Shown here: positions 7,797-48,954 of the stretch, piece after piece
Position numbering within the stretch: the stretch's first letter is position 1
How the letters are laid out: every line of letters starts with the position of its first letter
NCBI GenBank assembly: GCA_963682055.1
Contig: OY821744.1
Location: 34,448,967-34,512,966, forward strand
DNA length: 64,000 nt
Direction: 5' to 3'
Source: Primula veris
Taxonomy: Eukaryota > Streptophyta > Magnoliopsida > Ericales > Primulaceae
Made by a program: the position numbers and the translations under genes
The notes under the pieces: generated by a model
What the model saw: only the letters and a program-made list of their open reading frames with translations
Databases searched by the model: none
What the model was told of the DNA's origin: nothing

Positions 7797-10700
7797 AGAA
7801 ATAAAAATTGACTTCAGGAATGATAGAAGATTTAAAGTAAGAATTACGAGTGAACCTCTACACGCTCAAGAGTTTAGATCAGATGTAAGTGAAAGAAATT
7901 GGGTTCGGCACATACATATAAAGATCACAGTTGACAGTATTAAAATTTTAAAATCGACCAAGGGGAGAATTAGGTTCTCAATTAGAATTCAAATTTATTA
8001 AATTATAGAAAAAAACACCCGTATCATCTGTCTCTTTTAGTTTATGATGAAATGTAAATAGCAGAATGTCCCAGAATAGTGTGCTTCTAATTATGAAGAA
8101 ACCAGTATATGTAAGCATAAAAGTGATAATGTAAAGTTTGTATCTGTTGAATGGAACACGTAGCGTTCCTTTATTGAGTTACAGCAAAGGTTTTTTCCAA
8201 TCCCTCGTCATGGAGATAAGGTCAAAATTGCATCACATGAAAGATGAAAACAAAGTTACAGCTCCGATGAAATGAGCATTACCGGGAATGACAATTTGAT
8301 GACATCTTCCTTATATCCCAAAGTTTAATCGTCTGATCCTTTCCGTTTGAAATGAAATAACGACCATCTCCACGACTATCAAGAAACGTTATCCCTTCAA
8401 GATGCCCCGTAAGGACACCTGCAGGTTTCCCCCTGGCTTTTAAGCAACGCCTATCCCAAACCTACATGGTAACATAAATTACATTTACATTGTTTCAATT
8501 AAATTTAATGAAATAAAACGGAAAGTAACACTTTTCTAGACCACCTATAGCTACCAATAAAAAGTACACTAGGGCTGTAATTTCAACTGCAAAGCACTAT
8601 TTTAGTATTATTGTTCGATCACAAATCACAATTGTGTACTAAACTCCAATGAGTACACAAAATCAACAAATTCGTACACCAGCATCAAAATTTAAACGTA
8701 AAGCACTTGTGAATATTGATAGGTTGGTGCAACAGTTATTTGATTTTCTGTAGATTGGTATCGAATTTATGAATTTTGATAGGTTGTTGTACAAAATGTT
8801 CGACTTAGTGTAGATATGTGTCTAGATTTTGATATTTAATAGCACTAACTATTAGAAATTAATAGTATGATGTATAAAGTAATATTTTCCTTGAACTTTA
8901 TAATCAAAATCATTTCTTCGTCGCCAAAAAAAAATAAAAAATCATTGTCATGGATTGTTGGACAGTCAAGTAAATACCTTACAGAGATTATCATCACTCC
9001 CAGAAAAAATTAGATGGCCACTTTCATCAGCAAAACAGACGGTATTGACATCAGACTGCATCAACGCAAAAAGTAAAATAAAAAAATGAACAAAGTTATT
9101 ATATATTATATGAATTTTATTAAAAATTAGCTAATGGGCAGAACTTAGCATATTATGATTGATATCCTAATGAAAACTCAGAAAACAGAATCTATTTAAC
9201 AGAAGCACAAGAAGATTAAACTGATAATCATGCAACAGCAATGTATTCACTTAAGGATTGGTTGGTTGCAGATTTTAAGCAAATATGGTGGATTTTTTTT
9301 AGGTTCAGAAAAAGCTAGATTGATCTAGATTATAATTTATGACTTATTTAGGTAAAAACAAGGATGCTCGGCTTTTAAGCTGGCCAACCATATGCAATCT
9401 AGAATAAATAAGAAGGGAGATAATATAAGCTTATAAGCTGCAACCAAACAAGGCCTTAGCAACGTACCGTGTGAGCCAAAATCTTTAAGGAGGTCTTATT
9501 TGCTTCAAGGTCATAAACGTATATTGAGTTTCCACTGCTACCAGCAACAATTTCTCTCCCATCGGTTGAGAATTTCAGAGAGAATATTCCAAACGAATAC
9601 ATACCATCATCCTCGGCAGAAAAATCAAGACCGTCATGGATCTCCTACATTGCACAAGTATATCTATATGAGATGTATGAGAATGAATAAAGAGAAATCA
9701 GCCCGTGCCATGTAGAAAGCGAATGTTCACAATTGTTCAATTTTACTGCCTAGTTACACTATAGCAAGTCACAGTCAATAAGACTGACTCCTTAGACCTT
9801 TCCAAATCTACCTTGAAGAGAAATACATTTCAAGTTATCAAGGAAGCTTACATAGAAGTAAAAAGAATCAGAAATGATCCTCTGAGAAAGGGTTTATAGT
9901 TTTACCCGAATTGTTATTGTCCAATTAAGCAACTTTCTATGTGTGTTGGTATTTGTGTTGCCACTATGTGTACTTGCTGCAAGAATCACAATTTAGATAC
10001 TACTAATCATTTATTTGGTTCTAGTGATGTTGTTAAACAGGTTTGAAGTTATTTCAAGAGAGTATTTGGCTTTAATTTGAGTTTTAATGGTAATTGGAAG
10101 CATTTTGTCACTAATTGGTGTAGTAGCTGTGATAGCACACAAACAGGACTACTAGCCTATATGGTACCTTTCTTCATTTTTTGGGAGACGGCTTAACAAG
10201 AATAATAATAAGTTTGAAAATATACCCATGAGTGCAGATACTATTATTAATAAGGTAATTAAGTGGCTTCGAGAATTAAATCATTTTTTAAAACCCAAGT
10301 TACCTGCAAAAAACTTTCAATGTTTAACTTTAACTTGTCTTAATGTTGGTTTCATTGCGTGTAAAATGAAAAGAGCTAGGCTGGTTAGCTGGAAGTGTCC
10401 CCCGTCAGGAAGGCTTAAACTTAATTTAGATGGCTCTTCTCTTAGTAATGGTGATAGTGGTTGCGGTGGTGTATTAAGAAACTCAAAGGGTCTCATGGTT
10501 TTTGCTTTTGCTTGTCACTTAGGTAATCACTCTAATACCTTTGCTGATTTAATGGCCATAAAAAACGGTTTGCTTATTTGCTATAATTTGGGCCTTACTG
10601 ATATTATGATTAAAACAGACTCAGAATTAATTGTTAATTGGTGGAATAACAAATCATCTCCTGGTACTAAATTTAATTTGTTTTGGGAAGATATTATTAC

Positions 10701-13604
10701 GCTAATGGATTTAGTTTGTTTAAATTTAACTCATGTATTTAGGGAGCAAAACCAAGTTGCAGATGGACTGGCGAAAATGGGTTCTGGAGGGGCTAATTCA
10801 ACTTTTTTCAGAGCAATGGACCTTAATAGCCATATACATGCGGCATACAATCTTGATCAGATAAAAACTCCTTGCTTGAGAGTAAGTTATTTCAATATTT
10901 AAATTTATTGTTTAACCAATGATGGCATGGAGGCTGAGGTTAAGACCCTTGTGGTTTGGTCCCTTTGCAGTCCCCTTATTGTATATGGGTTATCACATTT
11001 ATATGTGTATAAACTAATTTTTTGGTTAAGCTTATGATGTTATGGTGATGAAGCTTCTGTTGCTTTTTTCCTTCTATGATAACACTTTTACAGTGGCTAG
11101 AGAATGAAAATTACTCATACTTCTATGATAGCATCTTTGATGGTTGGAGATGTGTTGAACTATTTTGGGGTTATAATAGTGATATAATGTTTCTTTCCTC
11201 AGATTTGTTGCAGGTTGTCTGGAGATGATGTGGATTTCATCTTTTTGCTTATTTGGAGTTCTCAAGCAAGTGCCAGAGAATACAGTACCTTCTCATGTGT
11301 CAAGCTATATAAGTGTTTCAATTAGTTTATCCGGTAGTTTATAAGCCTAACTTGGGGTTTTTTGTTGTTAATTTTAAAATTCTCTCCTTGTTTCTCTGAG
11401 TTTTTTGTTGTCATAAAACATCAGTTTTTGATCACCTTGATCTGTTTGTGAAGACATAAGGTCAGGGGGTATAAGGAGAAAAGTCGTGTTTTTTGAGCTC
11501 AAATTACTTTTTAAAATGAGGATGTGAAAAGTGATTTTGAACTAACTTATTTTCCCACAAGTTTTTTGTTTTAGGTTTATTGTAACCGCCAAGTTATATT
11601 AGTACATTTACTCTTATCGGATTCGATCTCAATTATTGCTGGCATGGGGGCCCATGTAAAAAGAACGTTTCATGTCTTTAGTAAAATTTCTTTATTTAAA
11701 AAAATAATAATAATAAATAAATAAATTAAGCAACTTTCTACGTCCTAAATATACAAAGATGCTTACACAACAAAACATTCACTTCTTTAGATCTAAACAT
11801 TTCCTGAATATGAGATCAAAAGTGATATTCTTTTTTTATGAACTCTCTAATCAATTTGATTTTTGGGCATTGCTATCCCAGCGAATATAAAAGCTTTACC
11901 AGATTCTATGATTTACAAGGCCTTTGAAGTTTTTCAGCGAATAGCTGGATAATAAATTCAGTCCTGGTATCGAACTAATAGTCTTAACACCATTTCTCTT
12001 TCTTATTGTCTTATTAAAAGTTCTGAGTCCCTAAAGCGAAAAAGTAACATTGAATCATAAATTCCATGAGACCACTAAAGTAGACAATTAAGTGTTACTA
12101 GATCAATTTGCACAGACTAGCATGCGATAAATTATGTTTCTGAAAAAGGAATACTATTAAGCACTATGTTGTAGCATTGAGTACCGTAACATTTGCATGA
12201 GACTCCGTTGTGCCGGATCCAACATCTACAATATGGACAATAGGGGACATGCTGGCATAAGCCTGCAATTAAAACATAACCAGAGAATGAGACTGCTTGA
12301 TATATAGATAAATAATAAATTTACACTGATGTCGAACCAAAGCTATACTTAGTGCAGGTTCCTTTGGTTTCTTCCAAAAAAGGATGGGTAAAAGAACTCA
12401 CCAGATAGCGCTTATCTGGCGAGAGAGAAGTATCAGTGATTGTCCATCTCAAGCTCTTGGCAAGAATGTTCTTTCGGACTTCCCACCCTTTATCCACATC
12501 ATATATCTTAATACTGCTTCCCTGTGTACAATTTACAGAATAAAACACTACCTTTTTTCGATATATGAAGTCAAGGAAAAAACAATGATCTTCTCTATGT
12601 CGTGTGCACAAAATCGTCATTTCAATTTCATCTGTTTCCTTCTCAGCTATACAATATATGAAAATTTGAAGATAAGATTTCAATAGAGCAATGATTTGGT
12701 TAGTTAGTAGTTTTATTTTATACACTGTTTTCTGAAGTTCTCCCCCCATGTCTTTTTATCCACCACTATTAACAAAATAAAAAGCAGGGTTTCCCCACTT
12801 TTATTGTTAAAAAAAATGTAGTTTTATACTCAATGTATCACTAGATATTGATTTTGACGTCCAAAAATTAGCATTTTTTCTCCAAGGTTACACTTGTCGA
12901 CAACTAAGTACACTTGGTGTACAAATTGGATAAATAATCATAGGCTAGAGGTACTATACAGTTAAGACTTAAGACTGATGAAAAAGTCTAATACACTTTT
13001 CTATCATCTTATTTATATTTTGTACACCATTCTATATACTTTTTCCCTATTTTAGTTCCAATTCTTTTATTTTATCTTAGAACCCGGACTATGATTGTTT
13101 TTCTATGTAGTGTACTCAACACCATTTTCTAGAACAACTTACAAACTCAAGTTTTGTAACACGTTAGTATACAGAATTATAATCTCCTCGTGAAGCTTGT
13201 ACCTGAAAACCAGCCACAAAAAGGGAACCATCTGCTGAGAACTGGGACACATAAGCCCGTGAAGACATCTTATCCACAACACGAGGACTATTTACGGGTA
13301 AATATCTACTCAACAAATGGCGACAATCTGCCTTGGAAAACTTCCCTCTTCCTGAGTAATTACCTTCTCGTCCTACCAACATCTTCACTGCCGAAACAGG
13401 AATCTCGCGCTTACCTGGACCAACACGTGTCAGATGCTTATTGGGTGTCGTTTGGAGCTTAGTTACTTGCGCAATTTCATGGTCAACAGGGTTCTTCCGT
13501 TTATTTGGCCAATGAGTTTCAGCAGATTCCGAAGCGGACTTGCTAGTTTCAGATGATTCGTCAGAATTTGTATCTATTCTTAGTCTACTCATGGAATAAC
13601 CCAT
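5903..13604 (-). CDS. LEC14B: LEC14B/DCAF11-like WD40 repeat protein, nine exons
   Basis: Coding exons, in transcript order, are 13604-13203, 12521-12402, 12262-12185, 9644-9468, 9055-8978, 8461-8283, 7653-7483, 6984-6924 and 6100-5903. They join to 487 aa plus TAA, each with an AG acceptor and GT donor. The start MGYSMSRL was chosen over an upstream in-frame ATG at 13640 because it matches the family N-terminus. The protein has a Ser-rich N-terminus (about 1-60) and then WD repeats such as VYIYDV, TIKLWDIRKM and the C-terminal DCSWHPHYPMLVSSSWEGDI. This family resembles DDB1-CUL4 associated factor 11, so a substrate-receptor role in a CUL4 ubiquitin ligase is likely from family knowledge, not shown here. 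A possible 5' UTR acceptor lies at about 13624. The 2.5-kb third intron holds a LINE, and other introns hold a G30 run and MITEs. Confidence 0.93.
6368..6575. mobile_element. MITE with GGCCTTGTTTGGTTGCA ends, in WD40 intron
   Basis: The left end GGCCTTGTTTGGTTGCA is matched at the right end by the inverted TGCAGCCAAACAAGCC. The element is about 208 bases, AT-rich inside, and lies in the last intron of the WD40 gene. Another copy is at 9255-9456. I could not define a target-site duplication. It could be hAT- or Harbinger-derived. Confidence 0.6.
7761..7790. repeat. 30-base poly-G run in WD40 intron
   Basis: Thirty consecutive G bases, read as poly-C in the transcript, lie in the intron between the exons ending at 8283 and starting at 7653. 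They stand out in AT-rich sequence. The exact length may be an assembly or polymerase artefact. Confidence 0.95.
9255..9456. mobile_element. second copy of the TTGTTTGGTTGCA MITE
   Basis: The left end GGATTGGTTGGTTGCA pairs with the inverted right end TGCAACCAAACAAGGCC. It lies in WD40 intron sequence, about 11 bases from the donor of the exon at 9644-9468. It is more diverged than the copy at 6368-6575. Confidence 0.5.
9940..11723 (+). mobile_element. 5'-truncated LINE retrotransposon in WD40 intron 3
   Basis: The insertion is framed by identical 17-bp target-site duplications, AATTAAGCAACTTTCTA, at 9923-9939 and 11724-11740. It ends in an A-rich (TAA)n tail at about 11697-11723, as plant LINEs do. 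The 5' end starts inside a reverse-transcriptase-associated zinc-finger region: around 9945-10060 the frame reads C..C...NHLF-like residues. A frameshift near 10190 separates it from the RNase H frame. About 800 bases of 3' UTR follow. It lies antisense to the host gene, inside an intron. The perfect duplication suggests a fairly recent insertion that was dead on arrival. Confidence 0.88.
10228..10902 (+). pseudogene. LINE-encoded RNase H domain fragment
   Basis: This is a 224-codon open frame inside the LINE. It has the plant RVT_3-type RNase H fold: LNLDGSS (first catalytic Asp), a central KTDSELIVNWW strand (Asp), and VFREQNQVADGLAKMG (last Asp, with the FREQNxxAD signature). The usual second catalytic residue, the Glu of an AEL..I motif, appears as Asp in FADLMAIKNGL. 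The first ATG is not a real start, because the homologous frame continues upstream (RLNKNNNKFENIP) until a frameshift. It is the remnant of the LINE ORF2 C-terminus and not a host gene. Confidence 0.85.
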
Positions 13605-14599: not shown

Positions 14600-15445
14600 C
14601 TTCTAGATACTCTAAAATGGAAGCCTTTTATCAAAAACGACAATCGATATTATAATAAACAGCCAACAAAGAACAGAATACTGTTTTGACTTTAATAAGC
14701 TCGCTTAGAGGCGAAAAAGCTCGATTCAAATCATGAAAAGACTGAAAAAAGTTTAATTTCCCACTTTTTACTCCGATAAAGCTCAAGCCTTTTCCGCCTG
14801 GACACTCTAAAATGGAAGCATTTATCAAAAAAATTATTGAAATCCAAATTATATAAACACCCAACAAGCAACAGAATACCCTTTGACTTCTCTAAGCCCG
14901 CTTCTAAGCAGAAAAGCTCAGTTCAAATCTTAAATAGACTAAAAAAAACTCGATTTTCCACTTTTTACACTTAAATACTCTAAAATGGAAGCTTTTACAA
15001 AAACCTTAATCGAATTCAAAATTATAATAAACAGACAACAAGCAACAGAATACCCTTTGACTTCTCTAAGCTCGCTTCTAAGCAGAAAAGCTCAGTTCAA
15101 ATCTTAAATAGACTAAAAAAAACTCGATTTTCCACTTTTTACACTTAAATACTCTAAAATGGAAGCTTTTAGAAAAACCTTAATCGAATTTAAAATTATA
15201 ATAAACAGACAACAAGCAACAGAATACCCCTTGACTTCACGAAGCTCACTTCGAAGCGAAAAAGTGCGTTTCAAATTTTGAAAACACCGAAAAAGGCTAG
15301 CTTTTCCACTTTTTAAACCGATAAAGCTGACGTCTTTTTACGTTTTTAACGAACCTCTTACAAAAACGCTTTAGCTTTTCCACTTTTTAAACCGATAAAG
15401 CTGACGTCTTTTTACGTTTTTAACGAACCTCTTACAAAAACGCTT
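14600..15445. repeat. tandem repeats of about 175 bp and 73 bp
   Basis: Four degenerate units begin with ACTCTAAAATGGAAGC near 14608, 14802, 14974 and 15149 (spacing 172-194). A separate 73-base unit with GATAAAGCTGACGTC follows, present twice in near-identical form (about 15298-15371 and 15371-15445). The copies most alike are adjacent, as expected from unequal exchange. The block is noncoding and lies between the divergent WD40 and PPR genes. Confidence 0.8.
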
Positions 15446-15577
15446 TACCTACAATTTTATCTTTTTTTAGAACATTCAAACTAATAGAAAGCATTTCAAT
15501 GAACTGCAAATTTGACAAAGTAAGTGCACAACACGATCATATAAAAAAAACTCCAACATGAATAAAAATCAAGACTG

Positions 15578-16350
15578 AAACACAACAAAGTAGTTAAACT
15601 ATTCGAAAATTAAAAACAACAAATTGACAAAGTGAAAACAACAAGATGATATAAAAACTGCATATTAAAAATAAAAAAATGTAACACAACAAAGTAGCTA
15701 AACTATTGGAAAACTAAAAACACAAAATTGACAAAGTGAAAACAACAAGATGATATAAAAACTGCATATTAAAAATAAAAAAATGTAACACAACAAAGTA
15801 GCTAAACTATTGGAAAACTAAAAACACAAAATTGACAAAGTGAAAAAACAAGATGATATAAAAACTGCATGTTAAAAATAAAAAACTGTAACACAACAAA
15901 GTAGCTAAATTGGAAAACTAAAAATACAAAATTGACAAATTAAGTGAAAACAACAAGATGGTATAAAAACTGCATATTTTTTAAAAAAAAAAAAAAACTG
16001 TAACACAGCAAAGTAGCTAAATTGGAAAACTAAAAACACAAAATTGACAAAGTAAGTGAAAAAAACAAGATGATATAAAAACTGCATATTTTTTAAAAAA
16101 AAACTGCAACACAACAAAGTAGCTAAATTGGAAAACTAAAAATACAAAATTGACAAAGTAAGTGAAAATAACAAGATGATATAAAAACTGCATTTAAAAA
16201 TAAAAAACTGTAACACAACAAAGTAGCTAAATTGGAAAACTAAAAACACAAAATTGACAAAGTAAGTGAAAACAACAAGATGATATAAAAGCTGCATATT
16301 TAAAAAAAAATAAAAAATTAACACAACAAAGTAGCTAAACTAATGGAAAA
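15578..16350. repeat. tandem array, about 105 bp x 8
   Basis: Units starting with AACACAACAAAGTAG recur at about 15580, 15682, 15787, 15891, 16002, 16107, 16210 and 16319. The spacing is near 105 bases, with small indels in A-runs. The long open frames on the minus strand here (Phe- and Tyr-rich) are artefacts of the array. Confidence 0.88.
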
Positions 16351-17600
16351 TTAAAAACAGAGCTTAAAAAGATAGAACCAGCTGATAAAAATAAAAACCC
16401 AAAAGATATTATCACCTATTTGTGATATTGATGATGCATATTAGTAGAATAGAGCATAACATAATCGATAAGAAGAAGATAAATTATATATGATCAGAGT
16501 GTTTTAAGGGCTAAAATGGTCATTATTTCTATTTTTGTAGGTGAAATGGTAATAAATAAAAAGAGTGGACTTTAAATTATTTGGGTTGGTGTGACACGTC
16601 ACCATTGTTATTTATGTTATTTTTGATATTTATTTTTCTATTTATCTCAAACTCATATATAATAATTTTACTTTATTAGTTTTATTAAAAATATATATAT
16701 GATCAAGGTGTGATTTATACTCGGTCTATTTAGTTGGTAGTTATGTAATGTGAGCCATTTTACGGGAGCCATTTGCGTCACCGTAAGCAGCAGCCAAGCA
16801 TATGAAAAAACGTAACGTTTTTTTATTAAAAACTTGATTAGAACTTACTTAATTAGTTATCGTCATTACGTTATTCGAATTGGGTAGTGAAAAACGATAG
16901 TAGAATTTATATAGTTTTTTTTTGTTAATATTTGATTTTACATGGTTGATACCCATTTTAATAAGGGTACTTTAGTAATTTTAAACTATGATTTTACAGG
17001 TTTTGTTAATTTAACACCTTAAATTTGTAAGCGCCATATCTACGATTAATATATATTCACGCATAAAATCCGAAATATTGTTTTACATTAGTTTAATCTA
17101 TGCGGCACGTAATGAATCTCATATGCACACCAGTATAATATTTGTGCTTATTTACATCTCTTCATTCTCTAAAATCCATTTTTTTAAATAAAAAAAAAAC
17201 TCTAAAACCCGAATAGTTATAAAAAAAAGTCCACACCTTTTAATTAAGATACAAAACTAAAAAAATCTAAAAAAAATAGATTTTAACTTCTTTTTTTTCT
17301 AGTTTGATATCTTTATAGTGTAGATTATATATATTTTTTTAAATCTTAAAAACAACTTTTAACCTCTATTTTATATTTTATTATATTTTCCGTATAAATT
17401 ATAAGTTATTTCTTAACCTTAAAAACAGTTTTTAACCTATTTTTTATCGGGTCGAATGACTGAAACTTAAAAAAAATTTGACACAAAACCTACACTTAAA
17501 AAATATTATAAAAACTAAAATGTGATCTATGACTAATTTTCTCGAAAAACGAGTCCTAATTTTCCTCGTTTCCTAAATTTAACGGGTCGGGTCTCACTTG
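16351..17600. other. intergenic, no gene seen
   Basis: AT-rich sequence with many A and T runs upstream of the PPR promoter. No coding signal or transposon end was found. Confidence 0.6.
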
Positions 17601-17603
17601 AAT

Positions 17604-17636
17604 TGGGCCATAAAGCCCATTCCCTATATTGGCCCA
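17604..17636 (+). promoter_or_regulatory. cluster of site II (TGGGCC/GGCCCA) elements
   Basis: TGGGCC at 17604-17609, GCCCAT at 17615-17620 and GGCCCA at 17631-17636 lie 165-200 bases before the PPR start. Site II elements bound by TCP factors are typical of plant genes for ribosomal and organelle proteins, which suits a PPR gene. The later exon-1 copies lack this cluster. Confidence 0.65.
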
Positions 17637-17650
17637 TAAAATTTAACATT

Positions 17651-17678
17651 CTCTTTCTCTTTTCTCTCTCTCTCTCTC
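17651..17678 (+). repeat. CT-rich microsatellite in PPR promoter or leader
   Basis: A run of about 28 pyrimidines, mostly CT, sits between the site II cluster and the telo-box. Such Y-patches are common at plant transcription starts. Confidence 0.6.
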
Positions 17679-17755
17679 GCAGAGATTAATCGTTTAACAC
17701 TAAATAAACAAAAACAAAACCCATTTTCATTATATATAAATTCACCAAAAAAAAC

Positions 17756-17765
17756 AAAACCCTAG
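17756..17765 (+). promoter_or_regulatory. telo-box AAAACCCTAG
   Basis: The AAACCCTA element lies 36 bases before the PPR ATG and close to the site II cluster. This pairing is known from plant translation and organelle-biogenesis genes. The motif is repeated in the downstream exon-1 copies, except the third, where it reads AAATTCCTAG. Confidence 0.6.
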
Positions 17766-17801
17766 AAAAAAAAAAAAAAAAAACCAAAACCAAACAAAAC
17801 A

Positions 17802-20800
17802 ATGAAAAAGAGACTATATACAAGGCTAATGACGATTAGATCCCTCACCGTCCAATCAAACCCCGCCACGTGTCCCTCACCCTCTTTCTCAAACCTCGCC
17901 GGGTTATTCGCCGGCAAATTCGGAGAGAGTCGTTACTGGCAGGACCTCCGTGCTGACGTGGCGGATTTAAGAACCGAGCTAACGGAGAAATCGTCCGAGG
18001 ATAAAAAAGGCGTTGGTAAGGCGTTGGAGGGTAAAGGGGTTAGGTTGTTTATGCGGCATTATAACGGTTCCGCTTTCGTTGAGCTGATGAAGCAGTTGGA
18101 CGGTGATCATCATTTAGCTCTCGAGGTTTGATTATTTTAATATTAAAATGTTTGTTTTTCGTAGTTTTTGATTAGGTTATTTGGTTAATGTGATTGAATG
18201 GATACCTAGAATTTAGCTCTCGAGGTCGCGTATTTTAATTAAAATGTTAATTAGTTATGCCGATTGTTGTTTTGTTTAATTAGTGTCGCGTAGTAGCTCG
18301 GTTTGGACTTTTTACAAACACTTGGTATGCATATTAGGAATTTTTAAACGCTTTCGTCGATTGATGAATTAGTTGCAGGATTCCCACCATTTATCTCTCG
18401 AGGTTTGTTTATTGGCTTTTAAGCTGTTTTATTTGCTTTCTATTATATTAATATATTCACCAAAACAAAACCCTAGAAAAAACCAAATCAACAAACAATG
18501 AAGAACATCGTACACTGGATAATCCCAATCAAACCCCGCCACGTGTCCCTCACCCTCTTTCTCAAACCTCGCCGGGTTATTTGCCGAGAAATGGGGAGAG
18601 AGTCGTTACTGGCAGGAACTCCGTGCTGACGTGGCGGATTTAAGAAACGAGCTAACGGAGAAATCGTCCGAGGATAAAAAAGGCGTTGGTAAGGCGTTGG
18701 AGGGTAAAGGGGTTAGGTTGTTTATGCGGCATTATAACGGTTCCGCTTTCGTTGAGCTGATGAAGCAGTTGGACGGTGATCATCATTTAGCCCTCGAGGT
18801 TTGATTATTTTAATATTAAAATGTTTGTTTTTTGTAGTTTTTGATTAGGTTATTAGGTTAATGTGATTGAATGGATACCTAGAATTTAGCTCTCGAGGTC
18901 GCGTATTTTAATTAAAATGTTAATTAGTTATGCCGATTGTTGTTTTGTTTAATTAGTGTCGCGTAGTAGCTCGGTTTGGACTATTTACAAACACTTGGTA
19001 TGCATATTAGGAATTTTTAAACGCTTTCGTCGATTGATGAATTAGTTGCAGGATTCCCACCATTTATCTCTCGAGGTTTGTTTATTGGCTTTTAAGCTGT
19101 TTTATTTGCTTTCTATTATATTAATATATTCACCAAAACAAAACCCTAGAAAAAACCAAATCAACAAACAATGAAGAACATCGTACACTGGATAATCCCA
19201 ATCAAACCCCGCCACGTGTCCCTCACCCTCTTTCTCAAACCTCGCCGGGTTATTCGCCGGCAAATTCGGAGAGAGTCGTTACTGGCAGGACCTCCGTGCT
19301 GACGTGGCGGATTTAAGAAACGAGCTAACGGAGAAATCGTCCGAGGATAAAAAAGGCGTTGGTAAGGCGTTGGAGGGTAAAGGGGTTAGGTTGTTTATGC
19401 GGCATTATAACGGTTCCGCTTTCGTTGAGCTGATGAAGCAGTTGGACGGTGATCATCATTTAGCCCTCGAGGTTTGATTATTTTAATATTAAAATGTTTG
19501 TTTTTCGTAGTTTTTGATTAGGTTATTTGGTTAATGTGATTGAATGGATACCTAGAATTTAGCTCTCGAGGTCGCGTATTTTAATTAAAATGTTAATTAG
19601 TTATGCCGATTGTTGTTTTGTTTAATTAGTGTCGCGTAGTAGCTCGGTTTGGACTTTTTACAAACACTTGGTATGCATATTAGGAATTTTTAAACGCTTT
19701 CGTCGATTGATGAATTAGTTGCAGGATTCCCACCATTTATCTCTCGAGGTTTGTTTATTGGCTTTTAAGCTGTTTTATTTGCTTTCTATTATATTAATAT
19801 ATTCACCAAAACAAATTCCTAGAAAAAACCAAATCAACAAACAATGAAGAACATCGTACACTGGATAATCCCAATCAAACCCCGCCACGTGTCCCTCACC
19901 CTCTTTCTCAAACCTCGCCTGGTTATTTGCCGAGAAATGGGGAGAGAGTCGTTACTGGCAGGAACTCCGTGCTGACGTGGCGGATTTAAGAACCGAGCTA
20001 ACGGAGAAATCGTCCGAGGATAAAAAAGGCGTTGGTAAGGCGTTGGAGGGTAACGGGGTTAGGTTGTTTATGCGGCATTATAATGGTTCCGCTTTCGTTG
20101 AGCTGATGAAGCAGTTGGACGGTGATCATCATTTAGCCCTCGAGGTTTGATTATTTTAATATTAAAATGTTTGTTTTTCGTAGTTTTTGATTAGGTTATT
20201 TGGTTAATGTGATTGAATGGATACCTAGAATTTAGCTCTCGAGGTCGCGTATTTTAATTAAAATGTTAATTAGTTATGCCGATTGTTGTTTTGTTTAATT
20301 AGTGTCGCGTAGTAGCTCGGTTTGGACTTTTTACAAACACTTGGTATGCATATTAGGAATTTTTAAACGCTTTCGTCGATTGATGAATTAGTTGCAGGAT
20401 TCCCACCATTTATCTCTCGAGGTTTGTTTATTGGCTTTTAAGCTGTTTTATTTGCTTTCTATTATATTAATATATTCACCAAAACAAAACCCTAGAAAAA
20501 ACCAAATCAGCAAACAATGAAGAACATCGTACACTGGATAATCCCAATCAAACCCCGCCACGTGTCCCTCACCCTCTTTCTCAAACCTCGCCTGGTTATT
20601 TGCCGAGAAATGGGGAGAGAGTCGTTACTGGCAGGAACTCCGTGCTGACGTGGCGGATTTAAGAACCGAGCTAACGGAGAAATCGTCCGAGGATAAAAAA
20701 GGCGTTGGTAAGGCGTTGGAGGGTAACGGGGTTAGGTTGTTTATGCGGCATTATAACGGTTCCGCTTTCGTTGAGCTGATGAAGCAGTTGGACGGTGATC

Positions 20801-23800
20801 ATCATTTAGCCCTCGAGGTTTGATTATTTTAATATTAAAATGTTTGTTTTTCGTAGTTTTTGATTAGGTTATTTGGTTAATGTGATTGAATGGATACCTA
20901 GAATTTAGCTCTCGAGGTCGCGTATTTTAATTAAAATGTTAATTAGTTATGCCGATTGTTGTTTTGTTTAATTAGTGTCGCGTAGTAGCTCGGTTTGGAC
21001 TTTTTACAAACACTTGGTATGCATATTACGAATTTTTAAACGCTTTCGTCGATTGATGAATTAGTTGCAGGATTCCCACCATTTATCTCTCGAGGTTTGT
21101 TTATTGGCTTTTAAGCTGTTTTATTTGCTTTCTATTATATTAATATATTCACCAAAACAAAACCCTAGAAAAAACCAAATCAACAAACAATGAAGAACAT
21201 CGTACACTGGATAATCCCAATCAAACCCCGCCACGTGTCCCTCACCCTCTTTCTCAAACCTCGCCTGGTTATTTGCCGAGAAATGGGGAGAGAGTCGTTA
21301 CTGGCAGGAACTCCGTGCTGACGTGGCGGATTTAAGAACCGAGCTAACGGAGAAATCGTCCGAGGATAAAAAAGGCGTTGGTAAGACGTTGGAGGGTAAC
21401 GGGGTTAGGTTTTTTATGCGGCATTATAACGGTTCCGCTTTCGTTGAGCTGATGAAGCAATTAGACGGTGATCATCATTTAGCCCTCGAGGTTTGATTAT
21501 TTTAATATTAAAATGTTTGTTTTCGTAGTTTTTGATTAGGTTATTTGGTTAATGTGATTGAATGGATACCTAGAATTTAGCTCTCGAGGTCGCGTATTTT
21601 AATTAAAATGTTAATTAGTTATGCCGATTGTTGTTTTGTTTAATTAGTGTCGCGTAGTAGCTCGGTTTGGACTTTTTACAAACACTTGGTATGCATATTA
21701 GGAATTTTTAAACGCTTTCGTCGATTGATGAATTAGTTGCAGGATTCCCACCATTTATCTCTCGAGGTTTGTTTATTGGCTTTTAAGCTGTTTTATTTGC
21801 TTTCTATTATATTAATATATTCACCAAAACAAAACCCTAGAAAAAACCAAATCAACAAACAATGAAGAACATCGTACACTGGATAATCCCAATCAAACCC
21901 CGCCACGTGTCCCTCACCCTCTTTCTCAAACCTCGCCTGGTTATTTGCCGAGAAATGGGGAGAGAGTCGTTACTGGCAGGAACTCCGTGCTGACGTGGCG
22001 GATTTAAGAACCGAGCTAACGGAGAAATCGTCCGAGGATAAAAAAGGCGTTGGTAAGGCGTTGGAGGGTAACGGGGTTAGGTTGTTTATGCGGCATTATA
22101 ACGGTTCCGCTTTCGTTGAGCTGATGAAGCAGTTGGACGGTGATCATCATTTAGCCCTCGAGGTTTGATTATTTTAATATTAAAATGTTTGTTTTTCGTA
22201 GTTTTTGATTAGGTTATTAGGTTAATGTGATTGAATGGATACCTAGAATTTAGCTCTCGAGGTCGCGTATTTTAATTAAAATGTTAATTAGTTATGCCGA
22301 TTGTTGTTTTGTTTAATTAGTGTCGCGTAGTAGCTCGGTTTGGACTATTTACAAACACTTGGTATGCATATTAGGAATTTTTAAACGCTTTCGTCGATTG
22401 ATGAATTAGTTGCAGGATTCCCACCATTTATCTCTCGAGGTTTGTTTATTGGCTTTTAAGCTGTTTTATTTGCTTTCTATTATATTAATATATTCACCAA
22501 AACAAAACCCTAGAAAAAACCAAATCAACAAACAATGAAGAACATCGTAGACTGGATAATCCCAATCAAACCCCGCCACGTGTCCCTCACCCTCTTTCTC
22601 AAACCTCGCCTGGTTATTTGCCGAGAAATGGGGAGAGAGTCATTACTGGCAGGAACTCCGTGCTGACGTGGCGGATTTAAGAACCGAGCTAACGGAGAAA
22701 TCGTCCGAGGATAAAAAAGGCGTTAGTAAGACGTTGGAGGGTAACGGGGTTAGGTTTTTTATGCGGCATTATAACGGTTCCGCTTTCGTTGAGCTGATGA
22801 AGCAATTAGACGGTGATCATCATTTAGCCCTCGAGGTTTGATTATTTTAATATTAAAATGTTTGTTTTCGTAGTTTTTGATTTGGTTATTTGGTTAATGT
22901 GATTGAATGGATACCTAGAATTTAGCTCTTGAGGTCGCGTATTTTAATTAAAATGTTAATTAGTATGCCGATTGTTGTTTTGTTTAATTAGTATCACGTA
23001 GTAGCTCGGTTTGGACTTTTTACGAACACTTGATATATATTAGGAATTTTTAAACGCTTTCGTCGATTGATGAAGCAGTTGCAGGATTCCCACCATTTAT
23101 CTCTCGAGGTCGTGTATTTTAGTTACAATATTTATTAGTAATGCTTATTGATGTTTTGTTTAATGTTTTTTTTTTTTGTTGAGAAAATTGTTTTAGTGAT
23201 TGGTTATGCTGATCTCAGCTGATTTATTCGTTTCCTTTTTAAGTTGCATCAGTGTTTCAAAAGTTGTTAGGCGAACTCAAGGCGGAAGGTGCCGAGGTAA
23301 CTTGGCGGAGCCTGAACCGGGGAGAAATGTTTTCTGGGTTTTTTTGGATTCTCGTTCAGTAGGTGCAAATATTAATAAAAAGCTAAATTAAGCATTCATA
23401 CACTATTAATTTTTTAGTATACTATCAAGGATTAAAAAAAACTATCTTAACAATATATGAACAGTCGAACATAAAAATAAAAATAATGATATATTCAAAG
23501 ACAAATGTAAAGTGCAGAATAAGCATTTATGAGTTTTTTTACTAAAAATACTAAATCACCTAATTTGACTGGGTTGACCCATTAGACCCGAGCTTACCCC
23601 ATATCAAAACGCTTAGTATTAATCGCGACGGCAGAAAACTTCTGGGGCCTTGGCGCGACCTAGGCAGATCAAGGCATACTTTTGAAACAGGTGCTTTTTG
23701 TTTGATAGCCCAGGTTAGAAAACGAGTCTTTTTGGCTTTCTGGCATGAAAGGCTAGGAATTGCATTATGGATTAATGCACTTTCTTTACCCAAACTAAAA

Positions 23801-25726
23801 TAGACAATAATCAGAAGATAATTTGCGTGCCTGAATGATGCACTCAGACAAGCCTGAGTTGTGATTTTATATTGGTATTTTACCGCATGTGGAGAGGATA
23901 AACGGTTTTGTGCGCTCATGAGGCACTACAGACTTCCCTTCCTTATTCTCAACCAATTTGTGTACCCATAGGATTTTATTATGATTGGGCATTGTTGTGG
24001 ATTTTATTTTCATCTTCTTTTTATTTTTGCTTATAAATTGTGGGGTACTTGTTTGGCAGCTTAAAAACTAGGAACTTTAATATGGCTTGACCTCGTTTTT
24101 TTTCTCCGACTCAAAGCAACAACCTTAATTGCTTGCTTCAAAGTTGCACCCAAATAAACCATAGATCATTTTTTACCAAGCAATTGTACTAGTGTCCAGA
24201 TTGATTATTTCATAGAGGATATCGAAGTTCATGATTAATCATCGATGTGAAATAATTGGAAGGTTTTGGTCATCTTTTAGAATGCTAGTTGTTCCCAATG
24301 AATGGAGTCAATATTATGGTGATCCTTATTTATACTCACAGCTGAATAAAAATTTAAGGCCAACTTGCAGTCAACTCAAATATAAATAGCATATATGTTG
24401 ACGCCTTGAAGGAACTTAAGAAGGCATGTTCTAGAAACATCACTTTTGAGATGAAGTTTTTGTAATTATTAATTAATGAGTAGCTCATGCTCAAATCAAA
24501 TTTGTTGGTGTCAGCTTATAACGTAATTTGGTTCTGTTTCATTTCTTTGTGTGGTTTATGACTGAACACTAACCTTGTTTGAAAATTTGAAATCCCATCA
24601 GGTTTTCAAATGGAGGCGTAATCAAGCAAATTTAAGCATTCCATTGACATCGGAAGAATATTCGAAAGGTATCACTCTTGCTGGTAGAATGCGAAATGTT
24701 GATTTTGCCCTTGAGCTTTTTACCGAGGCTGCTAACAGAAGAATCAAAACGCCATCTACTTATAACGCCCTCATGGGTGCTTACATGTTTAGTGGTCTAG
24801 CAGATAAATGTCAACAACTTTTTCGAGATTTGAAAAGGGACCCAGAGTGTTGCCCTACGGTTATAACGTACAATATACTAATTTCTGTATTTGGCCGATT
24901 AATGCTGATTAACCACATGGAGGCAACTTATCGTGAGATAGGTGAATTAAATCTGTCTCCCAACGTTAGCACATTTAACAATTTAATTGCTGGGTATGTT
25001 ACCGCTTGGATGTGGGATAGTATGGAGAAAACATACAGAATTTTACAGGCTAGCAATGTTAAGCCAGATATAAGTACCTACTCTCTAATGCTTCGTGGTT
25101 ATGCACATTCTGGTAGTTTGGAAAAGATGGAATCTATGTATCACCAAGTGAAAGATTACATTGATTCAAAAAATATCCCGCTAATTAGAGCTATGATATG
25201 CGCATATTGCAAAAGTTCTGATTCAAATAGGGTAATAAAGATCCAATCTTTATTAAAGATTATTCCGAAGGATCAATATAGGCCATGGCTAACTGTGTTA
25301 TTAATTAGGCTATATGCGCAAGAAGATTTGTTGGATGAGATGGAAAATTTGATAAACGAGGCAATCAAGCATAAGACGTCTGTGTCGTCTATTCATGTGA
25401 TGCGTTCTATTCTTACGGGGTATTTTCGAGGCAATAAAGTGGATAAATTGGCTGATTTTGTAATACGTGCCGAAAACTCGGGATGGAGAATATGCAGGTC
25501 TTTGTATCATTGTAAAATGGTTATGTATGCATGGGAACAACGGATTTTAGAAATGGAGAAAGTACTTGTTGAGATGGAGACTAGAAATTTTAGACGCACA
25601 AAGAAGACTTTATGGATATTATATAAGGCATACGTAACATGTGGGCAAAAATATAAAGTCGAACAGGTGAAAGGGTTAATGTGGAAACATGGATATCAAT
25701 TTCCTTTGGAAGCATATCCTTCGTAG
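17802..25726 (+). CDS. P-class PPR protein, At2g30780 type
   Basis: Exon 1 (17802-18125, 108 codons) joins exon 2 (24602-25726) in phase 0, giving [14 protein letters not shown] and a 482-aa product. The N-terminus is basic and Ser/Thr-rich ([15 protein letters not shown]), suggesting import into mitochondria or plastids. Exon 2 holds about nine degenerate 35-residue PPR motifs, such as [20 protein letters not shown] and [20 protein letters not shown], with no PLS, E, DYW or SMR domain. PPR proteins of this class bind organellar RNA; the target is unknown. Family and length agree with Arabidopsis At2g30780 from memory. The 6.5-kb intron carries seven further copies of exon 1. Only the first copy has an ATG in frame with the donor, so it is taken as the real first exon. 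Confidence 0.9.
18379..18402 (+). other. possible 24-nt micro-exon, repeated in every array unit
   Basis: TTGCAG precedes, and GTTTGT follows, a 24-base segment coding DSHHLSLE, close to the end of exon 1 (DHHLALE). It is phase 0 at both ends, so it could be inserted between exons 1 and 2 without breaking the frame. The same segment occurs once per unit, for example at 19052-19075, and in the last unit at 23085-23108, where GTCGTG follows. No transcript evidence is available. Confidence 0.3.
18498..22835 (+). pseudogene. seven frame-shifted copies of PPR exon 1
   Basis: Each copy begins ATGAAGAACATCGTACACTG (one has GTAGACTG). It is 23 bases shorter than the real exon between the ATG and CAATCAAACCCC, which puts the ATG out of frame; the reading stops after 44 codons at TGC TGA. 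In the true frame a TAA precedes CAATCAAACC, but the rest of the exon stays open and the donor CTCGAG|GTTTGA is kept. A downstream in-frame ATG ([18 protein letters not shown]) could start a truncated product. The shared lesion shows that all seven came from one damaged founder. Confidence 0.85.
23114..24601 (+). other. unique 3' part of PPR intron 1
   Basis: The segment ends at acceptor CATCAG|GTTTTC. A pair of inverted TGTTTCAAAAG motifs (23253-23263 and 23679-23689), with GC-rich neighbours, may bound a 437-base MITE, although no target duplication is visible. A fragment with ACTTGTTTGGCAGCTT at about 24047 and an inverted AAGTTGCACCCAAATAAACC at about 24140 resembles the MITE family in the WD40 introns. 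No coding signal is seen. Confidence 0.4.
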
Positions 25727-27755
25727 CTTAATTATCAAAAATAGAATAAAAATATTTCTAAAGATCTCCTCTGGAATTGAAGAGAAGAAACTTTTAGCGG
25801 AAAGAGTTTTGAGCGAGTACCTAATGCGTTCAAATGGGTTATTACAAGTTCACAACTGCAAGACGAAAAACAGTATCAACCAGCTCATCGGTAAAAAAAA
25901 TTCCTTTTTTTTTTTTTTCTTTTGGAGTTGTTATTTATGTGATAGACATTCTTTGCATGCAGCTTCTACATCTTTTCATACTTGCTCTCAAGTAAATTCA
26001 ACGCAGAAACTGTTTTATTAGATATATTTCCTTCAGTTTTTACCACCTTCATGAGGCAGTGTATAGCGTACTAAAGTATCTTAATCCTTGGTTGGTTACA
26101 TTACAGCTTATGAACTCAGAAATTTGGCTTAGAAAGAGGGACTGGTCTGGTTTCAGCGTTTTACCTGTAGGTTTTTGGTGTCTTTTTCTGAATAAGCTAG
26201 TATTTAGTTGGATGAAGACCGCCTTTACTGGTGTTAATTACAGTTTTGTACATTTAATTTTCTCATTTTGTCGATTTTGTGTACTGATCTTTAAAAAATA
26301 CTAATTAGTAGTTTAGTACACAAACCTTGTACGATGAGTTAAGGCGTATGTACCGAATTTGGTGAAAAATTCTATGTTTGTAAGTTGGTATGCTAAAAAG
26401 TCACGAAAAGATACTTTGTAGTTTGTACACTAAACTATATACTATTCCATTTTTTTGCTTTTATAGTTTATACACAATCGTATCAGGTACTAATTTTGAT
26501 TTTGGTCCTCATGCTATCATCGATATTCTATCTAGTGTACATAAGTGAAAAATTGTTAGATTAGTGTACTAATTAGGATTTCTATTAGGTTGGTGTATAA
26601 AAGCGAAAAAATGAAAAAAGTTAGTTTACAAAACTGTAATTAACCCGTTTTTCCGAACCTTAAAAACTCCCAACTTATTTGCTTAAAGCTGAAACCATCC
26701 CTTAGCCAGATGAAGACCTCAGTCATGCCACATTGTGGTCTATAAATCATGAATAAAACCATTTTATGTGATAGGGATTGTGAATTAGTTGATATTTTCA
26801 CGGTTTGCTAGGCCTATAGCTTCACTTGTTTTCTATATAATCTCTCAATCAAGCTTCTGAAAATCTGATTTTTAGGCTGAAAAATCTAAAAAATCCAGAT
26901 TTTTAAAATCTAGCTTTTCAGTGGATTATCAAAACAGATTTTTAAAATCTGATTTTGGACAAAAATATCTGTTACCAAACATAGCCTAAATGACATTTTT
27001 TTTCTAAATTTTCTATAATAAGTTGGTTAAATTAGCTGTTTGTAATTCTTATGGTGAAGATTTGGCATTAGCTTTTTTTGTTGTTGGTGTATGCAAGTAA
27101 TGTGATCAGGAATTACTATTGGAATATATGTATAATTGACACTCCAAACAAGTTCCATTCCTGGGAGCAAGCCTACCCTGTTGTTTATTTGTTTAATAAT
27201 TAAGAAATCTTATACATAAATTATTCAAAATATTTACATGAAGTCCATTGAAATTGGCGTTGCAATATTTTCTAGATCTGGTATTAAGCTCTCTTTGTGA
27301 TGATGTGCAGTTTTGCCGAACGGAACATGACGGGATGAACTATGTTGGCTACGGTCACAAGGTGTGCTTTCTCTTTTACGTCATAGGAGAATCCAGTTTT
27401 GCATTTGGATTCTCAGTTTTTGAAATGTGAATGAGAAGAACCCACATTTTACGATCGAGATGAAACGGAAACTTGTATAATACAGCTCGACTGTCCTGTA
27501 GACCAGATCACCGGTATTCTGGGTGTAACAAAGGAAGAAACACTCTTAAAGGGGTTAGCCGTTCAGGGCATGCTGAACAAGATATTTTTTTCCCAACATA
27601 TTTACACCCAAGGAAATTCATTTTAGTTAGTACAAGGAAAATGTTACATTTGAGGTTTGAATATTTGAATATTATTGGAAGCCATTGAGTTGTTTATTAT
27701 GGATGGTTCAGATTCGACATGGTTCTTTATTATTTTACTGGAGCTATTATGAAGA
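25727..27755. other. 3' flank of PPR gene
   Basis: AATAAA at 25745 is a possible polyadenylation signal. The block near 26870-26960 is rich in AAATCTGATTTTT and its complement and can fold on itself. Short ORFs at 25689-26021, 26059-26304 and 27248-27430 show no domain and are taken as chance. Confidence 0.45.
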
Positions 27756-27957: not shown

Positions 27958-28787
27958 GCACTGCATTCGAAGATGTTTTCTTGATTCTTTATCACTTCCA
28001 GCTACATCGGTTTGGAAATAGGATAAGATTTATTGTCAAAACTCAAAAGCACGATCCCAGCCACGGAATCAGTTTTTTCTTTTCCTTTTTTTGGATCCAG
28101 CTCGTCACATTAAGGTCCTCTTTTCCCCACCCAACGGCTCACGAAAGATGAATTTATGTCTCGAAATCAAACCTATGTAGGCATTTTTTTTACTAAACCG
28201 GTAGATTGAAAAATGAAGGAGAGTTAGTTTGAGCGTTGCAACCGTTTGCGACGGGACTGCTGAATTTCGGGTACAAATGTACTTTAAACTCTTTGTTATG
28301 GACAACAATTTACGAGGATCTACTAGCTTATTTTTCTGTTTATGTTATTAAGCGACCAATTATTAGGAACCTATGAGAAACAAAGTCACTTGAGAAGCTA
28401 TGCATCTGTTTATTCATATCACATATGAGGTTGGATTTTCCGAGTACAAAAAATCTTTTTTTTACGTTAAAATCGTAATTCGAAAGTATAAACCTTAATT
28501 TAACAAAATGTTTAAAGTTACTGATATTTATCTGGAAAGGTGCACACATAATGAGAACTGGTTGAGTAATACGTTTGAACTATAATAAAGTTATAAAGCT
28601 CGATGGTCACACTATTCATGTTACATTTAGAAAATTCTTTTTCTTATAAATGATGGTTTTTATGGATAGATGAACAGTTGACCATTAAAAAGCTGGATTA
28701 ATGCTTGTAAGTTTTTCTTTTTTTTGAAATAAAATAATAATGGTAAGGTGTTTTTTTTTTTTTTTTTTTTATGTTCTTTGTTCAATG
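27958..28787. other. intergenic, no gene seen
   Basis: AT-rich sequence with a T-run of more than 20 bases at about 28751-28770. Nothing recognisable was found. Confidence 0.5.
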
Positions 28788-30385
28788 TTCTAAAAGGCGC
28801 AAGTCGGAATTTGACCGTCTAACGCAAAATCACTCTAATTCCCGCCTAATCTCATATAATCTGTCAGATTTTTAGCCTTCGATTATCGCCTATGAATCAC
28901 TTAATTTACGTCTAGACTTAAATTTTTAAAACATGTATAAAAATTGACAATTTAACCATGTAGTAACTAATATTCTATTAGGCGCAAGTCGGAATTTGAC
29001 CGTCTAACGCCAAATCATTTTAATTCCCGCATAATCTCATTTACTATGTCAGGTTTTCAGCCTTCGATTATCGTCCATGAATCACCTAATTTACGTCTAT
29101 ACTTTATTTTTAAAACATGTATAAAAATTGACAATTTAACCATGTAGTAACTAATATTCTAGTAGGCGCAAGTCGGAATTTGACCGTCTAACGTCAAATC
29201 ACTCTAATTTCCGCATAATCTCATCTACTATGTCAGGTTTTCAGCCTTCGATTATCGTCCATGAATCACCTAATTTACGTCTATACTTTGTTTTTAAAAC
29301 ATGTATAAATATTGACAATTTAACCATGTAGTAACTAATATTCTAGTAGGCGCAAGTCGTAATTTGACCGTCTAACGCCAAATCACTCTAATTCCCGCCT
29401 AATCTCATCTACTCTGTCAAGTTTTCAGCTTTCAATCATCGTCTATGAATCACCTAATTTACGGCTAGACTTGATTTTTAAAACATGTATAAAAATTGAT
29501 AATTTAACCATATATTAACTAATATTCTAGTAGGCGCAAGTCGTAATTTGACCGTCTAACGCCAAATCACTCTAATTCCCGCCTAATCTCATCTATTCTG
29601 TCAGGTTTTTAGCCTTCGATTATCGTCTATGAATCACCTAATTTACGTCTAGACTTGATTTTTAAAACATGTATAAAAATTGATAATTTAACCATGTAAT
29701 AACTAATATTATAGTAGGCGCAAGTTGTAATTTGACCGTCTAACACCAAATCACTCTAATTCCCGCCTAATCTCATCTACTCTGTCAGGTTTTCAGCCTT
29801 CGATTATCGTCCATGAATCACCTAATTTACGTCTAGACTTGATTTTTAAAACATGTATAAAAATTGACAATCTAACCATGTAGTAACTGTTAGAGTAATT
29901 ATCCCACATCGTCTAGATAATAATCGAGTCTGTGATTTATAAAGAGATATCCATCATTACCATTACGAGGGCTTTTAATGATAAAATAATATGGATTCTA
30001 AAAATAACTAATATTTTAGTAGGCGCAAGTCGGAATTTGACCATCTAACACCAAATCACTCTAATTCCCGCCTAATCTCATCTACTCTGTCAGGTTTTTA
30101 ACCTTCAATTATCGTCTATGAATCACCTAATTTACGTCTAGACTTTATATTTTAAAACATGTATAAAAATTGACAATTTAACCATGTAGTAACTAATATT
30201 CTAGTAGGCGCAAGTCGGAATTTGATCGTCTAACGTCAAATCACTCTAATTTCCGCATAATCTCATCTACTCTGTCAAGTTTTCATCCTTCAATTATCGT
30301 CTATGAATCACCTAATTTACGGCTATACTTTATTTTTAAAACATGTATAAAAATTGATAATTTAACCATATATATATTAACTAAT
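28788..30385. repeat. tandem array, about 184 bp x 8
   Basis: Units containing GGCGCAAGTCG start at 28796, 28981, 29164, 29349, 29533, 29717, 30022 and 30207. The 305-base gap before the seventh is a regular unit plus a 117-base insertion. The first unit begins TTCTAAAAGGCGCAAG, which matches the reverse complement of the GCG...CATTTTAGAACATT ends seen at 38515 and in the 1.15-kb array. The array is therefore probably an expansion of a dispersed MITE-like family. Confidence 0.92.
29888..30004 (+). mobile_element. small LTR-like insertion inside the 184-bp array
   Basis: A 117-base segment interrupts one array unit and is flanked by TAAC on both sides (29884-29887 and 30005-30008). It opens TGTTAGAGTAATTATCCCAC and continues ATCG. 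Many plant LTRs and TRIM elements begin this way, and a TTATAAAG motif follows as in LTR promoters. It lacks a clear CA end, so it may be a solo or truncated TRIM LTR. Confidence 0.55.
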
Positions 30386-31082: not shown

Positions 31083-32309
31083 TTCATTTACAAGGTGGTA
31101 TAGATGTGAGAAATACTGTAAATTGTTTACAAGATATGGAGAGAGTGAAATCAAAGAGTTTTTATAGCGGAGAAGAGGACTGAAAATACCTTGGTAGATG
31201 AGTTGGTTTTCATGTCAAGAATAGCGGTGAGTTTCGCCGCATAGTCCTCTCTCTAGGGTGGATTTCGCCGCATAGTCCTCTCTATAGGCTGGGCTTTTTG
31301 TTTGCATCTGTGTTTTGGTTTGCCGCATAGTAGTAGTGGTTTTGTCTAAGTGGAGTACGTCTCATTTTGATATGTGTATATGATTTATAGTCAAGTGTTT
31401 GATCAAATTGTAATGAGCTTACTATGTAATATCTAATATTGGTAAATAAAAATTTTAAACTTTGCAAAAAAAAAAAAGAAATACCATAAATCAATTGAGT
31501 ATATAACCATTTTACGATCAATGCTACTTTCTCTTTTATTTAATCAAATTTAATAAAAAAAATACATTTTTTTTTTAATTTTACATAACATTTTTACGTC
31601 TAACATAAAACATCAGCCTCCCTATAAGTTTTCTTATTTTATTTTCTTTATTCTTCTAACTAAAAATGAAAACACCAATTATAATATTAAAAATTATGGG
31701 GATACTTTTTCTACCTCATTTAATTTGATGTTTTAAAACAGTAAGCTGAATAAAAAGATGATATATAATGATTATTTTTGCTATGTATTTGTCCTACTTA
31801 ATTGTTGGCTTTGATTTGAACCATGTAACAATTGTTAGTCATGGTCATTGTAATTAGGTTTCTCAATTTTTCCACCTGCTATTTTAGACTTCTCTTTTTG
31901 TTTTCTCATTGTAAAGATCTCTGTGGGTTGCACATGGCACAATAACTGTTAAATAGAATTTTTTTTTAAAAAAAAAAAACAAGTTCAATAAGTAACAAAA
32001 AAAAGGCCAGGTACAAATTGGCATATGGGTAAAATACTACTACTATATAATATTTAATGTAATAATGTCAAAGCTATTTGTAGCTTTATGGATACTTGTA
32101 CTTTTGAGTCTTTTGTCACATTTGACTAGCTATAATGGAGTTATACTAAAGTTTCAAACTCTAAGGTGAAAAAAATAATGACTAATATAGTAAAGTAATG
32201 TAGTGAGTCAAATTGGTAAATGCATTATTCTTCAATATTAATTCTAGTCCTATGAATGACTTTATGACATCATAAATCATATTGGTATCTAAAAATCTTA
32301 CCCAAGAAC
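31083..32309. other. intergenic with a 25-31-bp duplication
   Basis: TTTCGCCGCATAGTCCTCTC is present twice, at 31232 and 31263. The rest is AT-rich and shows no gene. Confidence 0.6.
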
Positions 32310-32427
32310 TTTATTCGTTGACGTGACGAATTATGTGCATCAATTAGCTTTGTTTTGATATTAAAAACATATTTTTATTTAAATTACAATTGGTTCGCAT
32401 AATCCGTCATATCAGCGGATAATATTT
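32310..32427. mobile_element. MITE with TTATCCGYTGA ends
   Basis: TTATTCGTTGACGTGACG at the left is the near-inverse of the right end CGTCATATCAGCGGATAA. A related copy at 46915-47029 has the same ends in the same order. Confidence 0.55.
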
Positions 32428-32589
32428 TCGGGTGGCTATAGCAATGTTTTTGGTTTTGTTTGAGCTTGGTTGTTACTGTATGTCTTTTCTAATTTTGCAA
32501 TAAATACTTCAATTTGAAAAAAAACTCATTGAAACGTGTTGTTAAGAATGTACAAACCAAAAAAAAGCTTGTCAAGAATGTCCTTAGGA

Positions 32590-32940: not shown

Positions 32941-33213
32941 CTAACTTAAATTTCTACATAAAATATAAAATGGAATCTCTGCTTAGTAGATTGGACTTTT
33001 TAAGAAATCTAGAAACTTGAATGGTAATTATATACTAAGTAAGTATTGAATATCATAATAAGGGTATTAGTCAAATGGAATAATTATAATTATATTAGCA
33101 CATGGGATGATGAAGCATTATACATTTATTAACTTAAAAAATACTATGGTTTACTTTTAATATTGATATGACCCCTACACTATTTGAATGGGTGACTTTT
33201 TGGGTTGGGTGAC

Positions 33214-48912: not shown

Positions 48913-48954
48913 TAATTTAATTTAGCTTTTAATCCCTGCTAACATTAGAGCTAT

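Follow-up and report, generated by a model that had tools for sequence, protein, structure and literature searches.

The PPR gene and its first intron

The stretch of Primula veris DNA analysed here (hereafter the window, 64,000 nucleotides; contig OY821744.1, C5:34448967-34512966 in an assembly of 436.5 Mb and 34 contigs) lies about 1.2 Mb short of the end of a 35.8 Mb contig and carries a two-exon gene for a pentatricopeptide repeat (PPR) protein on its + strand. The leader, first exon and proximal intron of this gene recur as eight head-to-tail copies (17728-23110), which, counting the functional one, sit between exon 1 and exon 2. The gene is built as follows:

17802..18125, + strand: exon 1, functional coding part; 108 codons, ending ...LALE in phase 0
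18126..24601, + strand: intron 1, which houses the other seven copies; 6476 nt
24602..25726, + strand: exon 2, with the PPR repeats; 374 codons plus stop

Joined, the two exons encode 482 amino acids (aa) in an uninterrupted frame with a single terminal stop. PPR models of Pfam score above their cut-offs on this protein (PF13041, 82.8 bits with a cut-off of 30; PF01535, 72.8 with 25; PF13812, 53.1 with 25; PF12854, 32.7 with 23.8), and PF17177, at 18.7 bits, lies under its cut-off of 27. A protein homologue search gave 510 matches, the best 120 of which form the basis of the homologue counts below. Among the matches listed, the closest are unnamed proteins with 71-73% identity (the very best being unnamed, PPR or hypothetical proteins), followed by proteins of Camellia (66%), Actinidia (66%) and Rhododendron griersonianum (63%); those labelled At2g30780 or At2g30780-like include Cornus, Nicotiana and Corylus, with 60-62% identity over 94-98%. 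The 482-aa protein aligns with plant homologues across most of its length and shares the length class and the PPR repeats of the At2g30780 and At2g30780-like proteins. It can thus be assigned to the At2g30780 type, a type taken from the homologue names. What sets the Primula veris gene apart from genes of this type is the presence of seven extra exon-1 copies in intron 1; a simple motif search of the 120 homologue proteins listed found no doubled exon-1 motif. The first 40 residues contain 6 K/R, 9 S/T and no acidic residues, a composition that is only suggestive of organelle import.

Matches to exon 1 were confined to the array in a search of the 436.5 Mb assembly in which the best candidates were scored. 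A 750-bp DNA query found, beyond the array, seven stretches of 56-68 bases, all matching its A-rich leader. No second close copy of exon 2 was found among the best 88 of 685 first-look candidates, a search that was not exhaustive; the next matches were other PPR-like frames with at most 33% identity.

Layout of the array

The initial annotation had described eight copies of leader, exon 1 and proximal intron ahead of exon 2, and we recover the same number, with starts spaced by 673 or 672 bp and 95-99% identity to the first copy over 300 nt. Tandem Repeats Finder (TRF) reports a period of 673, 7.8 copies, 98% matches and a score of 10037, and all seven other copies match exon 1 from position 51 on with E-values of 6e-122 or better. 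The array itself is real as described, but its limits shift: it begins at about 17728, at a putative TATA-like stretch, and its repeated part runs to 23110. With unit starts placed by hand, the features are:

17728..18440, + strand: unit 1 (713 bp), with the putative TATA-like stretch, the leader, intact exon 1 and proximal intron
17731..17740, + strand: putative TATA-like stretch, left edge of the array; units 2-8 carry an altered form
18441..19113, + strand: unit 2 (673 bp), exon copy with the 23-base shortening
19114..19786, + strand: unit 3 (673 bp), mosaic, with unit-1-type sites at 19255-19291
19787..20459, + strand: unit 4 (673 bp)
20460..21132, + strand: unit 5 (673 bp)
21133..21804, + strand: unit 6 (672 bp), four substitutions and one indel in common with unit 8
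21805..22477, + strand: unit 7 (673 bp), two intron changes in common with unit 2
22478..23110, + strand: unit 8, the last and the most diverged of units 2-8, stopping at the third junction copy

Unit 1 exceeds the standard unit by 40 bp, 17 bp of which lie in the leader and 23 bp after the ATG. The latter correspond to the shortening that the initial annotation had noted in all the other copies, and which we find immediately after the ATG in 7 of 7. Units 2-8 differ pairwise at 4 to 28 of 675 alignment columns, and no two units are identical. A 44-nt spacer precedes each new leader; comparison with the sequence upstream, after the array and at the intron start gave no match beyond shuffles, the spacer score being reached by 72, 160 and 226 of 300 shuffles, respectively. 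An Rfam scan of 16000-26500 found nothing, nor did a search of viral contigs for a DNA pattern from the exon.

Older duplications within the unit

The intron part of each unit repeats the final 55 nt of exon 1 and its donor in diverged form, 76% identical in seven units and 80% in unit 8. It also holds another, shorter junction copy (41 columns with 85% identity in unit 1), and the intron sequence that follows the array resembles the sequence behind the second junction copy of each unit:

18349..18402, + strand: older diverged copy of the exon-1 3' end in the intron part of unit 1 (76% over 55 columns)
18379..18402, + strand: 24-nt stretch, a hypothetical phase-0 micro-exon (DSHHLSLE), with TTGCAG before and GTTTGT after
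23111..23164, + strand: intron start after the array, 83% like the sequence behind the second junction copy of each unit

To judge from these divergences, from which the order of steps is derived, multiplication of the 673-bp unit was probably preceded by at least two duplications of the exon-1/intron junction. The 24 nt are identical in 8 of 8 units, with TTGCAG upstream and GT downstream in each; a single inclusion adds DSHHLSLE and leaves the frame open through exon 2.

Exchange among the units

Divergence is distributed unevenly along the units. In copy 1, the leader and the first codons have diverged from the array far more than the remainder of that copy: the unit 1 leader differs from the others at 14-16 aligned bases (about 21-25% divergence), and five of seven copies match it with 79% identity over 66 columns, in an alignment that the A-rich composition of the leader makes uncertain. 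At the other extreme, the intron parts of units 1, 3, 4 and 6 show zero substitutions, their sole difference being a 1-base indel in unit 6.

Exchange between the first and third units had been proposed from the outset, and the alignment bears it out. Over alignment columns 126-674, all six sites at which units 1 and 3 agree against all others fall inside 37 columns (181-217), a clustering matched by 1 of 200,000 random placements; because two pairs of the six sites are adjacent, they are not fully independent. Within the tract, three codons are replaced through five base changes, and one further change is silent:

17909..17945, + strand: unit 1/unit 3 exchange tract, unit 1 side (unit 3 side, 19255-19291), from the alignment

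Among the 120 homologues listed, codon 38 is D or E in 75, as in units 2 and 4-8; codon 48 is mostly D (61), as in units 1 and 3; and at codon 40 W is merely the commonest residue (28), with F in 16. Units 6 and 8 likewise have four substitutions and an indel in common, units 2 and 7 have two substitutions in common, and unit 8 is the most diverged of units 2-8, as expected at the edge of an array. Judged by the alignment, this pattern fits repeated exchange within a tandem array. The units are more alike inside the array than at its edges and bear exchange tracts, which places them among intronic tandem arrays under concerted evolution.

The initial annotation had also held that a damaged founder was amplified later. 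Its shared damage in copies 2-8 stands, but the history seems to involve more than recent amplification of a founder: the diverged leader and first codons of copy 1 point to an old duplication that was later kept uniform by exchange. Methylation-driven decay was considered as a source of the differences and rejected. With the majority taken as the old state, G>A or C>T changes make up 12 of the 32 substitutions in units 2-8, but CpG observed/expected is 1.2-1.4 in the units tested against 0.9 in the window, so that long-term CG methylation is unsupported.

Reading frames, splice donors and constraint

That the first copy alone is in frame is correct for the ATG, since reading from it in units 2-8 ends after 43 codons in 7 of 7, but not for the PPR frame, which is open in 8 of 8 copies, without any indel, over the 273 nt between the shortening and the donor. 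All eight copies retain this donor, CTCGAG|GTTTGA, as had been stated. Altogether, the array holds 23 CTCGAG|GT sites, plus one CTTGAG|GT in unit 8. In a read-through from the unit-1 ATG with no other splicing, the first of the 23 donors alone yields the full protein, and the other 22 lead to a stop after 109 aa. Inclusion of an extra copy as a cassette, tried from one acceptor-like TAG in the leader per copy, gave a stop in 7 of 7.

Among the copies, 15 codons of the 273-nt coding part are variable; 12 base changes, spread over 10 codons, replace the amino acid and 5 are silent. When unit 5 is paired with each of units 2-4 and 6-8 (six pairs), the nonsynonymous rate (dN) exceeds the synonymous rate (dS) in two, is lower in three, and both are zero in one. 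These numbers are small, and by them the extra copies show no strong constraint.

Origin and possible roles of the array

We class the array as an intragenic tandem duplication that evolves in concert, the gene depending on its one intact copy. We consider it probable, to the extent that sequence comparison can tell, that the duplication is old, has been held uniform by unequal exchange and is near-neutral, with normal protein made from copy 1; it would then be a homogenised scar rather than a new switch. According to this scenario, smaller and older duplications of the exon-1/intron junction came earlier, and the leader, exon 1 and proximal intron of the PPR gene were then duplicated in tandem within intron 1. 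Unequal crossing-over and gene conversion, which we infer because the copies are mosaic, would have kept the array uniform and probably altered its length, and copies 2-8 would have lost the start in the PPR frame. The native promoter, the first donor and removal of the 6.5-kb intron would give the normal 482-aa protein, the other copies being presumed intronic passengers with little or no function.

The genomic setting offers a background for such events. Arrays with a period of at least 60 bp occur in 9 of 20 sampled 10-kb stretches of the assembly (14 arrays in all; 200 kb in total, the stretches picked by round coordinates, not at random), and tandem duplication is therefore common in this assembly; the two 10-kb stretches adjoining the window hold arrays of 101 to 167 bp.

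Several observations weigh against a passive, near-neutral history. Arrays of at least 1 kb are absent from all 20 sampled stretches, which makes the PPR array unusually large for this genome. Among units 1-7, variable columns are more frequent in the coding part (15 of 273) than in the intron part (5 of 277), an excess not expected from simple homogenisation. dN is lower than dS in all seven pairs with unit 1 (ratios of about 0.3-0.7), a comparison that includes unit 1's own selection. Finally, passive decay does not require the PPR frame to be open in every copy, a weak point given how few changes there are.

The initial annotation put forward candidate effects of the array on splicing, expression or dosage, and copy-number differences between individuals. 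Conceivably the array is in use, either because decoy donors and the 24-nt in-frame stretches set the output of full-length PPR protein according to copy number or because gene conversion from frame-open copies rewrites exon 1. The tract shared by units 1 and 3 is the kind of change expected if copies convert exon 1, and its direction may be either way. We regard such use as unlikely. A role in splicing alone, in which the true donor faces competition from 22 decoys and from eight possible micro-exons of 24 nt, so that productive splicing is lowered or tuned, seems to us about as unlikely. It draws on the 23 CTCGAG|GT sites, on the TTGCAG|24 nt|GT arrangement in all eight units, whose single inclusion is frame-compatible with exon 2, and on the acceptor-like site of the micro-exon, which is hardly below the exon-2 acceptor in pyrimidine fraction (0.41 in the 17 bases before the 24-nt stretch against 0.47, counted by eye). 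However, exons of 24 nt are rare, and the sequences GTCGCG after the second junction copy and GTCGTG after the last one in unit 8 look weak as donors when set against the consensus.

It is quite improbable that copies 2-8 form a cluster of alternative first exons, each with its own core promoter and giving N-terminally shortened, untargeted isoforms from Met84. Every copy does have a leader, a TATA-like stretch, a donor and a PPR frame open up to that donor. The methionines after the first in the 482-aa protein are at positions 10, 84 and 96; Met10 falls in the part missing from copies 2-8, and Met84, an internal codon, is the sole in-frame ATG left to them. Initiation there would have to contend with the leader ATG, which is upstream, out of frame and opens the 43-codon open reading frame; the copies, moreover, show no strong constraint, and Leu82 is changed in units 6 and 8 (L in 104 and F in 6 of the 120 homologues listed). 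Still more remote is the idea that the array raises transcription by multiplying intron motifs (intron-mediated enhancement). The array does lie in the first intron, and CGATT, a word related to enhancement, occurs 17 times where 9.8 are expected, a number reached by 3 of 200 shuffles. But the intron of one unit contains it twice, which 30 of 200 shuffles reach and which is not significant, counts across copies are not independent, and TTNGATYTG occurs once with 0.6 expected; the motif counts thus gave no support, and the mechanism was rejected. Most copies, furthermore, are situated over 1 kb downstream from the likely start, a distance at which introns of this kind reportedly had no effect (PMC6760150). 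An assembly artefact appears just as implausible: copy-number errors are a classic hazard with 673-bp units of 95-99% identity, but the contig is chromosome-sized and all units are distinct, which disfavours assembly stutter.

Other repeats and neighbouring genes

Further tandem arrays in the window have periods of 174, 74, 104, 184/185, 146 and 1162 bp (TRF). Duplication of this sort is common in the genome, but some of those in the window are unusually large. Between the PPR gene and a - strand gene whose translation looks, by eye, WD-repeat-like lie the arrays with periods of 174, 74 and 104 bp (14603-16359). The 184/185-bp array (28784-30369) consists of about eight copies in two blocks, with a high CpG ratio of 1.53. 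The array of about 1162 bp (40765-45180; 3.9 copies, 91% matches) contains no open frame of at least 120 aa, and a search with it gave a single weak match once the array in the window and the flank to its left are set aside. At 32303-33414 and 46909-49248 lie several dispersed repeats, each some 80-270 bp long, in direct and inverted orientation and 75-97% identical. The translation of a 248-aa open frame at 10156-10902 resembles, as judged by eye, that of a retroelement RNase H.

A GID1B-like gibberellin receptor gene lies at 36664-38240 on the - strand, with 86-89% identity to three unnamed proteins and 81-83% to those of Bertholletia and Cornus. PPR and GID1-like genes have consecutive locus tags in Buddleja, Rhamnella and Escallonia, as seen by eye in these three.

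Relation to known systems and significance

Tandem exon duplication with mutually exclusive splicing is typified by Dscam, with which the array shares head-to-tail exon copies inside one gene; it differs in that the first exon is the one multiplied here, and in that the inclusion tried breaks the frame in copies 2-8. UGT1A and the clustered protocadherins are clusters of alternative first exons. Like them, the PPR gene has several first exons, each with a donor, ahead of a common downstream exon; unlike them, it has one copy only with its leader ATG in frame, and the copies are near-identical and show no strong constraint. An in-frame leader start in every first exon, as such a cluster would offer, is absent from copies 2-8, the leader ATG being out of frame in 7 of 7. 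Intronic minisatellite-like arrays kept uniform by unequal exchange are also known, and they share with the PPR array homogenised units, mosaic copies and a diverged edge unit; what differs is that the unit here is built from the gene's own leader, exon and donor. In the literature on the PPR gene, first-exon tandem arrays and intronic arrays, titles and abstract openings among the matches listed contained no comparable case.

The array would be easy to genotype because of its XhoI sites (CTCGAG), three in each of seven units and two in the eighth. If it is neutral, it would be a clean natural record of a gene that stays functional as copies of its own first exon accumulate in its intron, and older as well as younger duplications of one junction can still be made out in it. 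If, instead, copy number alters splicing, or the copies pass coding changes to exon 1, the array would act as a fast-mutating dial on an RNA-binding gene.

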